Shown here piece by piece: positions 49,859 to 52,970 of a stretch of DNA of 64,000 bases. The stretch covers positions 186,001 through 250,000 of the forward strand of contig JAKLJL010000001.1 of the NCBI GenBank assembly GCA_023151185.1, written 5' to 3'. The position numbers and the translations under genes are program-made. The stretch comes from Bacteroidota bacterium (GTDB taxonomy: Bacteria; Bacteroidota; JABWAT01). The notes beneath the pieces were generated by a model. It had not been told where the DNA came from. It saw only the letters and a list, made by a program, of their open reading frames with translations, and ran no database searches. Numbering within the stretch: position 1 is the stretch's first letter; every line of letters starts with the position of its first letter.

Positions 49859-50737
49859 CTAAAGTGCGGGCAAAACAACGGCACCCGACACCAGCTTGCG
49901 TAATGGAACTAACTTTTTTTCCTCAAGCCGCTTATTTGCGAACCGCGTGGTTTTAACAGCTCCCAATATATTGGCATAATAAAATAATCCTGTTGCTGCA
50001 GAAAAAGTTGCAGTTAACGGGTAACCCTCATGATTTGTTTTTTCTGCTTTCCAAACAGCCCAGGTTCCAAATCCAAATAATGCCGTCATACCAAATGCGT
50101 TCAGTCCATCAATCCAATGGCCCGTGTATGCCTGTCCTGATCCGGGAATAAAGGCGGAAAAAAGACCCGCTGTAACTTCCGATTTGGGTTCAATCTGCAG
50201 CAGTTCAGAAACCAAATCAAACAATTGGGCTGATATCCTGAGAATCAGACTGTCGCCGGAAGAGGACCTCAGTTTACTCAATTCCTCTTTTGCTTCTTCA
50301 TATCTTCCTTCTTCTGCGAGAAAGGAGGCATTTAGCAAAAAACCGGTTTCTGTTATTTCAATTTCCCTGGATTCCTCGATTGCAGTTCTTGCCATAATAA
50401 AATTGGACTGATCCTGATAGGATCTTGCCAGCAAAAAATAGGCAGTTAATTTTGTATCTGCTGTAGTTCCTTCCCGGTTTAAAATTTCACTGATGTGGTA
50501 GGTTGCCTGAACAGGTTTGCTGCTTTTTAAATATGATTCTGCAATCCAAAGGTCAATCTGACTTTTCCGTTCAGGAGTAGATTCAAAATATTTCATTTCC
50601 TTCCAAACCGAAATTGCCCTGAAATAATCCTGCTGTTTATATAAGTCATCCGCAAAACCAGCTTTATCCTGGGCCAGAAGCAGATCTGAAGAAAAAAATG
50701 TAAAAAAGAAAAAAATAAATGATACAGATTTCAGCAT
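49859..50737 (-). CDS. Exported TPR protein with C-terminal membrane region, unknown function
   Basis: A 292-residue protein. Signal peptide (about 1-22, ending LLLAQ), then a helical region of about 23-190 with TPR-like pairs (DDLYKQQDYFRAISVWKEM and YFLLARSYQDQSNFIMARTAIEE, shown in part). From about 190 come LFSAFIPGSGQAYTGHWIDGLNAF and two hydrophobic segments, a Gly/Pro-rich membrane element similar to small TM2/DUF5683-like modules. Encoded 18 bases after a YidD-like gene on the same strand, so the two probably act together; the nature of the action is unknown to me. Confidence 0.75.
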   Translation of the reverse strand: MLKSVSFIFFFFTFFSSDLLLAQDKAGFADDLYKQQDYFRAISVWKEMKYFESTPERKSQIDLWIAESYLKSSKPVQATYHISEILNREGTTADTKLTAYFLLARSYQDQSNFIMARTAIEESREIEITETGFLLNASFLAEEGRYEEAKEELSKLRSSSGDSLILRISAQLFDLVSELLQIEPKSEVTAGLFSAFIPGSGQAYTGHWIDGLNAFGMTALFGFGTWAVWKAEKTNHEGYPLTATFSAATGLFYYANILGAVKTTRFANKRLEEKKLVPLRKLVSGAVVLPAL

Positions 50738-50755
50738 AACAGAACCGGGCTCGTT

Positions 50756-51127
50756 TCAGTAGGTGAGATATCCTTCGTCATCCAATTTCAATATACCATC
50801 CTGGCGGACACGCAGGGAATAATAAAAATACATGGAATCATGCTCTCTGTACCAGGCTCTGTCTATAAAAAAGGCAAAACCAGTCAGAACTCCATATTTT
50901 CGGATTGCATTCAGGGTGAAATTTGAACAGGATGTATAGTAGGGGCAACGGGTTACGGAGTTGGGCCCGATTTGGGCCTGATAAAATTTTACAAGTGCAA
51001 TTCCAGGATTAAAAACCGAACTGTCAGAAAATGCAGGAAGTGACTCCCCGGGCTCCCAGCCTTCTGTAATCGGTTGTCCCGAAACACTTAACGGCAGGAG
51101 TAAAAAAATAAATATGCGGGAAAGCAT
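50756..51127 (-). CDS. YidD-family protein with signal peptide
   Basis: A 123-residue protein. The core from about 43 (ALVKFYQAQIGPNSVTRCPYYTSCSNFTLNAIRKYG, shown in two parts here: ALVKFYQAQIGPN and RCPYYTSCSNFTLNAI) is the YidD (haemolytic domain) family with Cys61 and Cys67. Ordinary YidD is about 70-90 residues, lies on the cytoplasmic side of the inner membrane and helps YidC-dependent insertion. This one has an N-terminal signal-like sequence (about 1-17, ending VSGQ) and a 25-residue linker, suggesting export. Its ATG directly follows a hairpin and nine T, with no Shine-Dalgarno. Confidence 0.85.
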   Translation of the reverse strand: MLSRIFIFLLLPLSVSGQPITEGWEPGESLPAFSDSSVFNPGIALVKFYQAQIGPNSVTRCPYYTSCSNFTLNAIRKYGVLTGFAFFIDRAWYREHDSMYFYYSLRVRQDGILKLDDEGYLTY

Positions 51128-51155
51128 AAAAAAAAAGGCTGGCAGAGCCAGCCTT
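51128..51155 (-). terminator. Hairpin and T9 directly before the YidD-like start codon
   Basis: On the minus strand AAGGCTGGC-TCT-GCCAGCCTT is followed by nine T and then at once by the ATG of the YidD-like gene. It should end the PEGA lipoprotein transcript. Confidence 0.75.
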
Positions 51156-51163
51156 AAATCTGA

Positions 51164-51652
51164 TCAGTTCTGGACCATTGGTACAACCATTTGCCGGAGC
51201 TCACCTTGGGAGTCTTTGGCGGTAAATACTGCATATAGTGCCTCGGATTTTCCATCCAGACTTGCGGTTGTCAAATTAACGGTAATGTCATTTGGTTCGA
51301 GCTTTTTCCAGGAACCGGCAGCGATATCAATTACAACTCCAATAACCCCGCCAATACAAATGTTTCCCCAGAATGCACCTTCAATAGCGCCAGGGCTCAC
51401 AGAAACTTTCTGGTCTTTGTATCCATCCAGAGAAACAGTCACGACATAATCTTTGTCTTTTTTTAACTTGAATTTCGCAGGCGTTTTTCCTTCAAAAACA
51501 GCAACACCTGCCTGGTTTGTGACCGTAATTTTTGCATCGCCGGGTGTCGAGTTAACCTTCATTTCCTGATTGCCACCCTTCATAATAGTTGCACAAGAAG
51601 AAAAGAAAGATAGAATCAGCAGTGCCATCCCGAACTTAGTGACCTGTTTCAT
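51164..51652 (-). CDS. PEGA-domain lipoprotein
   Basis: A 162-residue protein with a lipobox (LSFFSSC, Cys about 20) followed by ATIMKGGNQEMKVNSTPGDAKI, a common opening of PEGA-type lipoproteins in this group. The PEGA domain spans about 28-95 (VFEGKTPAKFKLKKDKDY, VVTVSLDGYKDQKVSV), then a Gly/Ile-rich hydrophobic segment (about 98-118) and a beta-rich C-terminus. PEGA domains are thought to bind or space at the cell surface. First of three minus-strand genes, but separated from the next by a terminator. Confidence 0.85.
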   Translation of the reverse strand: MKQVTKFGMALLILSFFSSCATIMKGGNQEMKVNSTPGDAKITVTNQAGVAVFEGKTPAKFKLKKDKDYVVTVSLDGYKDQKVSVSPGAIEGAFWGNICIGGVIGVVIDIAAGSWKKLEPNDITVNLTTASLDGKSEALYAVFTAKDSQGELRQMVVPMVQN

Positions 51653-51749: not shown

Positions 51750-52970
51750 TTAAAACGAACAGGCCAGTCTAAGCCGGAAACCTGAATATTTTGTCCCGTC
51801 AAGCGGATGGCCGGAATCGGGCATATTGATTTCAGATTCTGAATAAAGCAGTTCTGCAGAGGACAGGATTTGTTCTGCCAACTGGTTTTCTACCAGACCG
51901 GATATAAACCTGAACACGCCCTGTGTGGTGACTTCGTACCCGGCCGTGCGGATCTGGCGGTAATAACCCTCCTGGTTTTCATACCCGTTCATGGCTGTAA
52001 AGGTATTCAGCAGGGAAACGGCCCATCCCCGCTGAACAATGACATCAGGGTCACGCTGCAGGCCAATGAGGTGTTTAGTCAAGCTGATGTGGGAGGGGGA
52101 GGACGTATAATTCCCCCATCTGTCAACCATTAATTCGCCAATGTTGACTGATCCGTTCAGCCCAATTAACGTGTAAGTTTTCCCATCAAAATCAAACAGA
52201 ACTTCTGCCAGAGAACCGTATCCAATGTTGAAGGTTTTGGGTAACGGATCCTTTTGAATGGGGTCAACGTACACGAGTCTTTCTCCGGTATTGATCAGAG
52301 AAGCCCCGATTGAACCAAACCAGTTCAGTTTACCCCAGCCCCAATTACCTTGACCCGGTAGCAGGTTATGAAGCGGAGCCCGGGCAAGAAGACCAAAGGA
52401 ATAGGCATTTCCATCCGAAATTCCACGTCTGCCATCTGCATTTTTATGAGGATTCAGGTGGGAATTGATCCGGGTGAAAGAGGCCCCGGCAGAAAACTCG
52501 GCAAACCAGGTATAGCCAACCGAAAGGGAAAACGTGTTGGCTTCTTCCCAGGAATTGAACCGGTACAGTTCGTTGCCGGTCTGGTCTGTCTGAACATTTT
52601 CTCCGAGATCAAAATATTTTTTCACCCAGGTAAACTGGGTTTTGAAGGGAAGGCCTGTTTGACTCTCAAAATTATAGCCGGCTGAAACGAAATTGGTTGA
52701 AAGGTCGTTTCTATCAAGATTTGGCATCCAGACAGTGTGCTGCCATCCAGCCGAGAAATTGATGTCTGAAGTTTCGGTTGGGATCCAGGCCGGATTGTCA
52801 ACTGAGAGAAACGGGTCGTTCATGATCAGGGCTACGCCGGATCTGCCCATGCTGTTAATCGTTGCAGAAGGCGCAATCCTTAAAAAAGGAACGGCAGTCG
52901 TTTTTAGTTGGGCGCTAAGGGTAACCGGGATCAAAACGGACGTCATTAGTGCTACGGACAGCTTTTTCAT
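51750..52970 (-). CDS. PorV/PorQ-family outer-membrane protein
   Basis: A 406-residue protein with a signal peptide (1-20, ending TLSAQ) and the N-terminal FLRIAPSATINSMGRSGVALIMNDPFLSVDNPAWIP pattern (shown in part) of the PorV/PorQ (UPF0164) family, followed by amphipathic beta strands and a terminal aromatic (RLACSF), as expected of an outer-membrane barrel. In Bacteroidota, PorV shuttles type IX secretion cargo and PorQ is a related barrel; without other T9SS genes here the exact role is open. A second family member is encoded at 59098. Confidence 0.85.
   Translation of the reverse strand: MKKLSVALMTSVLIPVTLSAQLKTTAVPFLRIAPSATINSMGRSGVALIMNDPFLSVDNPAWIPTETSDINFSAGWQHTVWMPNLDRNDLSTNFVSAGYNFESQTGLPFKTQFTWVKKYFDLGENVQTDQTGNELYRFNSWEEANTFSLSVGYTWFAEFSAGASFTRINSHLNPHKNADGRRGISDGNAYSFGLLARAPLHNLLPGQGNWGWGKLNWFGSIGASLINTGERLVYVDPIQKDPLPKTFNIGYGSLAEVLFDFDGKTYTLIGLNGSVNIGELMVDRWGNYTSSPSHISLTKHLIGLQRDPDVIVQRGWAVSLLNTFTAMNGYENQEGYYRQIRTAGYEVTTQGVFRFISGLVENQLAEQILSSAELLYSESEINMPDSGHPLDGTKYSGFRLRLACSF

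Follow-up and report, generated by a model that had tools for sequence, protein, structure and literature searches.

The mode of action of YidD is poorly understood even in Escherichia coli. The E. coli protein is described as aiding YidC in membrane insertion (PMC3573977) and is placed in the SecYEG network (PMC8082313). Here we describe a YidD-like protein that is predicted to leave the cytoplasm, together with a predicted partner encoded beside it, in a 64,000-nucleotide stretch of DNA from a Bacteroidota bacterium (hereafter, the window). The original prediction knew of no described function for such a set of genes, and a search of open-licence papers likewise yielded no description of an exported YidD or of a pair formed by YidD and a TPR protein.

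The YidD-like protein and its partner in the window

As originally predicted, the locus comprises three consecutive open reading frames on the minus strand. The first (51164–51652) encodes a 162 aa PEGA-domain lipoprotein, with a lipobox-like FSSC read by eye and a domain match that passes narrowly (PF08308, 22.7 bits against a cut-off of 20.8). Just 5' of this gene, positions 51750–52970 of the window encode a PorV/PorQ-type protein that scores 78.6 bits, below the 90-bit NCBIfam cut-off. The second gene of the locus (50756–51127) encodes a YidD-like protein of 123 aa, which matches both PF01809 (43.7 bits, cut-off 27) and TIGR00278 (49.3 bits, cut-off 40); the latter cut-off is passed by exported and canonical YidD alike. 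After a gap of 18 bp between the YidD stop and the next start, the third gene (49859–50737) encodes a 292 aa protein, also predicted to be exported, that contains TPR-like repeats and the element GSGQAYTG (hereafter, the TPR/GSG protein).

Read from the sequence, residues 1–17 of the YidD-like protein (51077–51127, minus strand) form a putative signal peptide with cleavage predicted before Q18. The YidD core spans residues 43–90 (50858–51001, minus strand) and carries a CX5C pair (C61/C67), without the canonical third Cys and GG-DPVP end. The signal segment is separate from the helix that begins the core (residues 41–53) and a linker lies in between, in a poor, low-confidence AlphaFold2 model (64.2). 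Because the signal segment comes on top of the core helix, the view that it is itself part of a cytoplasmic amphipathic helix does not hold, and the original description of this copy as the housekeeping form plus a signal peptide and linker is borne out by a hydrophobic segment and linker that are absent from canonical YidD. A strongly hydrophobic 12-residue segment precedes the core in 98 of 102 exported sequences (four lie below the hydrophobicity line, and the references from genomes G227 and G108 are cut at or inside the signal sequence) vs 0 of 25 canonical YidDs, where the test covered residues after a Met and just three of the 25 had at least 12 such residues.

Export of the YidD-like protein, judged by eye and by simple counts, is further supported by an alignment of the predicted cleavage site. 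Q directly follows the site in all 43 aligned exported YidDs; five rows are too short for any further reading, and among the remaining 38 position −1 holds A, G or S in 32, and the first eight residues include a K or R in 34. The −3 residue is L in 13 of the 38, so that the classical −3 rule is followed only partly. We also examined named loci, the best 80 of 123 relatives retrieved with a pattern built on Ignavibacteria sequences, and 29 of these 80 match a stricter A-x-A-Q pattern.

Within the exported core, there is little or no variation at the tyrosine, the two Cys and the DR motif. The CX5C is present in 80 of the 80 named loci, exactly two Cys occur past residue 25 in 78, and the place of the third Cys is taken by D in all 80. 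The third Cys is also absent from the window copy and from G227, G230 and G010; it is kept in the exported YidDs of G108, G112, G135 and G189, and a single disulfide therefore does not describe all members. CX5C and third Cys occur together in all 30 canonical YidDs read (29 by pattern, L018 by eye). A search by sequence for a solved relative of the exported protein found none, the best match being to a TIR-domain protein at E 0.03.

For the neighboring protein, the original prediction had proposed a signal peptide, TPR-like helices and a GSGQAYTG membrane element. The protein is secreted as judged from its sequence, and although its TPR matches fall below the Pfam cut-offs (best 24.2 vs 27), its AlphaFold2 model (mean pLDDT 82.9, pTM 0.52) is built of helical repeats to about residue 180, followed by a short hairpin and two long helices that form a helical C-terminal part. 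This part (residues 186–263; 49949–50182, minus strand) does contain GSGQAYTG and is weakly DUF5683-like (13.4, below the gathering score of 26.7). Its proposed membrane nature is doubtful: the region is weakly hydrophobic (best 19-residue window 1.15), and in 33 of 40 aligned partner rows every window past residue 150 stays below 1.6, which argues against a classical membrane anchor and leaves anchoring uncertain. A Foldseek search with the model returned a mixture of TPR proteins that includes periplasmic ones (YbgF, BamD, SprE), with no match at E 0.001 or better and with the C-terminal part barely covered.

Linkage of the pair and its separation from canonical yidD

Two queries were run against 394 genomes of the phylum: the TPR/GSG protein of the window, and a profile built from 20 exported YidDs that include the window's. 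The best 44 YidD matches, one each in 44 genomes, score at least 63.3 bits, and the next among the matches listed scores 58.6. Of these 44, 32 were read (30 plus those of G189 and G010) and all are of the exported type, the other 12 being classed by score; matches at or below 58.6 bits were classed as canonical by score rather than by reading each. The conserved adjacency anticipated by the original prediction is found in all 44 genomes, each having a TPR/GSG match downstream of the exported-type YidD, on the same strand and within 1.5 kb. TPR/GSG matches occur in at least 50 of the 394 genomes, and both 44 and 50 are lower bounds, because scoring was confined to the top 6 or 10 first-pass candidates of each genome. 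Six of the genomes with a TPR/GSG match are without an exported-type YidD (G017, G038, G092, G252, G258 and G299); in four cases the match falls in a reading frame of about 1015 aa, in the remaining two the frames are 351 and 365 aa long, and no hidden YidD was found in the G038 region (best 5.7 bits).

The pair occurs in nine families. By hand count, 37 of the 44 genomes fall in three families that, from their named relatives, appear to be Ignavibacteria-type (f7, 25/25; f32, 11/13; f45, 1/1), and since these belong to one lineage, adjacency there is not independent. Elsewhere the pair is sporadic and its flanking genes differ (f1, 1/4; f4, 1/5; f17, 2/10; f30, 1/8; f39, 1/3; and f43, a single genome, 1/1). 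Among the named loci (best 80 of 123), the gene after exported yidD is a TPR homolog in 73 of the 79 that could be tested, with two successive TPR copies in 69. In L078 and L096 the TPR-like gene next to exported yidD is divergent or cut, and L100 has no TPR gene after it. TPR start and YidD stop overlap in 49 of 73 named loci (median −4 bp), a count that takes the TPR start nearest the stop and so favors small gaps. Moreover, in G108 the YidD and TPR/GSG parts are fused in frame in one 400-codon open reading frame, with one signal-like segment and without a second signal peptide ahead of the TPR/GSG part. A single-protein scan found no relatives in viral contigs, and a plasmid scan gave four weak matches, every one at a gene annotated yidD. 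The recurrence of exported YidD beside the same partner in the genomes examined suggests a two-protein envelope system, not described before, in some Bacteroidota-like bacteria.

The normal second yidD that the original prediction had proposed checking for near rpmH and rnpA is present in the same genome, on another contig, in the order dnaA, a kinase-like gene, rpmH, rnpA, yidD, yidC, mnmE and mnmG (names from reading the translations). The window's gene lies outside this rnpA-yidD-yidC cluster and is a different gene from the cluster copy; with a canonical yidD in the same genome, the exported copy is a paralog. In a phylogeny of YidD cores, a branch supported at 96/99 divides 22 of the 44 exported rows from 25 of the 30 canonical copies; the canonical copies L004, L011, L014, L016 and L018 were left out by the motif filter RC[HNR]P. 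Several exported branches are long, so the internal order of exported YidDs is unsure. These results suggest that automatic annotation gives one name, ‘membrane protein insertion efficiency factor YidD’, to two groups in different compartments.

The exported YidD was not found in two congeners of the window's organism, whose matches (L021 and L022) are canonical on reading, nor in G003, the other family member searched, whose match is far below the exported-type score. For YidD and for the TPR protein alike, the window's nearest relative is G227, which belongs to another family. Pairwise distances among the YidDs are correlated with those among the TPR proteins (Mantel r 0.84, n = 12), also outside Ignavibacteria (r 0.91, n = 7, P 0.004), and the nearest relatives of the two proteins agree in just 7 of 12 rows. 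That the pair is patchy across families and yet strictly linked points to transfer, or to repeated loss, of the two genes as a block. In our reading, the exported YidD is an old paralog, and the pair stays together through such events.

Other neighbors of the pair

In a few genomes, other genes lie beside the pair. In L107, L113 and L116 (3 of 80 loci), exported yidD and the TPR gene flank an LspA-like gene, which was identified by eye. In G112, G135 and G189 (families f17 and f39), a secreted protein is encoded directly upstream of exported yidD (L148:7763-8464, L149:2009-2746 and L151:8069-8797); among 394 genomes its profile matches only these three, the same three from which it was built, and one comparison of its f17 form with its f39 form gave E 2e-6. 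Its scores are below cut-off for LolA in G135 (13.6 vs 23.6) and for DUF4292 in G112 (13.1 vs 23), and the profile search lists neither for G189. With hhalign, the G189 protein scores 67 against DUF4292 and the G112/G135 proteins score 4 against LolA, with controls below 1. LolA and LolB occur in Bacteroidota according to PMC11885536, in the text of which ‘YidD’ does not appear. Taken with the PEGA lipoprotein gene near the pair in three genomes, the LspA-like gene and the LolA/DUF4292-like protein hint weakly, from few loci and similarities below cut-off, at a link to lipoproteins.

Several further neighbors were noted. A small secreted-looking protein of about 135 aa is encoded near the pair in G112 and G135 (L148:8614-9015 and L149:1456-1869), the L149 copy being without a Pfam match. 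Downstream of the TPR genes, many of the named Ignavibacteria loci carry an ACT-domain gene (42 of 80) and a DUF711 gene (35 of 80), as in L066:8167-11329 and similar loci, with LemA in 54 and a TPM-domain gene in 51 of 80. An acyl-CoA dehydrogenase near the pair, convergent in the window (where the gene was named by reading) and upstream in Ignavibacteria, was judged a coincidence.

A possible role in the envelope and comparison with described systems

We propose, as a tentative reading to which we give somewhat less than even chances, that the exported YidD and the TPR/GSG protein form a helper in the assembly or maturation of envelope proteins, outside the cytoplasm. Sequence supports export of the two proteins and their partnership: a YidD paralog would be made with a cleavable signal peptide, work outside the cytoplasm with the adjacent exported TPR/GSG protein, and form a functional unit with it. 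As to how the unit might act, we infer that the YidD core would rest on the outer face of a membrane via its retained amphipathic helix, with the CX5C pair held as a disulfide, and that the partner's TPR domain would recruit client proteins or further factors. The complex might then help envelope proteins, lipoproteins perhaps among them, to insert, fold or mature. A more specific version is rather doubtful: here the pair, having spread as a two-gene block, would be an undescribed extracytoplasmic counterpart of the YidC/YidD helper, in which a YidD paralog relocated across the inner membrane and a dedicated TPR protein build or mature outer-membrane proteins or lipoproteins. A YidD paralog that acts outside the cytoplasm with a constant partner would amount to a natural experiment on the function of the fold, and in Ignavibacteria-type bacteria the pair would make envelope assembly accessible to genetics.

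Other explanations fit parts of the same evidence. The exported YidD domain could instead serve the TPR protein as a small structural cap or as a binding module, with no role in membrane insertion, and the pair could serve another envelope task, such as stabilizing an outer-membrane or cell-wall complex. Loss of the third Cys and the GG-DPVP end in most exported members, the mixed outcome of the fold search with the TPR part and the G108 fusion would all suit such a module, but the near-invariance of the core tyrosine, the Cys pair and the DR motif suggests selection for something beyond a scaffold, and we regard this explanation as unlikely, if the strongest of the competitors. It is also conceivable that the CX5C is a thiol or metal site that operates extracytoplasmically and for which the TPR protein provides the docking partner. 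Retention of exactly this pair in nearly all named loci while the third Cys was lost fits that idea; however, the CX5C is equally present in the 30 canonical YidDs read, which marks it as an inherited feature of the fold and makes a redox or metal function improbable.

Least probable to us is that the PEGA lipoprotein, YidD and the TPR protein act together as a three-part envelope module, the trio of the original prediction. A PEGA gene lies directly upstream of the pair in two cases, the window and G108 (in the latter, a GTG or TTG start would make it overlap the fused gene), and it lies 1.4 kb away on the opposite strand in G135. But these are the only three pair genomes with the gene near the pair: PEGA proteins of this type occur in 18 of the 44 pair genomes and in 75 of 394 overall. 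In the window, moreover, a terminator-like hairpin with a T run (51135–51155, minus strand; −15.2 kcal/mol, z −2.89, with 2 of 200 shuffles equally good) follows the PEGA gene and ends just ahead of the yidD start, so that PEGA is probably a separate transcription unit; a region-wide scan for such hairpins found four vs a shuffle mean of 2.9, not above shuffles. Of the trio, then, the YidD/TPR pair stands and the PEGA lipoprotein is an occasional neighbor rather than a fixed part. Our preferred reading accordingly concerns a two-protein helper in envelope protein assembly or maturation.

Compared with described systems, the PEGA lipoprotein of the window is ordinary, sharing a lipobox (by eye) and PEGA domain with other lipoproteins of this kind. 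The TPR/GSG protein appears, from its sequence and model, to share an exported helical-repeat fold with periplasmic TPR envelope factors such as YbgF/CpoB, BamD and SprE; unlike them it has a YidD partner and an extra C-terminal part, and none of the Foldseek matches reached E 0.001. With DUF5683/TM2 proteins (PF18935, PF05154) it shares a PGxGxxY-type element followed by helices, whereas its matches to these families are below cut-off and the element is joined to a secreted TPR domain and is only weakly hydrophobic. The exported YidD shares with YidD (PF01809, TIGR00278) the core domain above cut-offs, the core helix and the CX5C. It differs in having a putative signal peptide and linker, in the adjacent TPR partner gene, in its position outside the rnpA-yidC cluster, in the loss from most members of the third Cys and GG-DPVP end, and in forming a group of its own in the tree (96/99).
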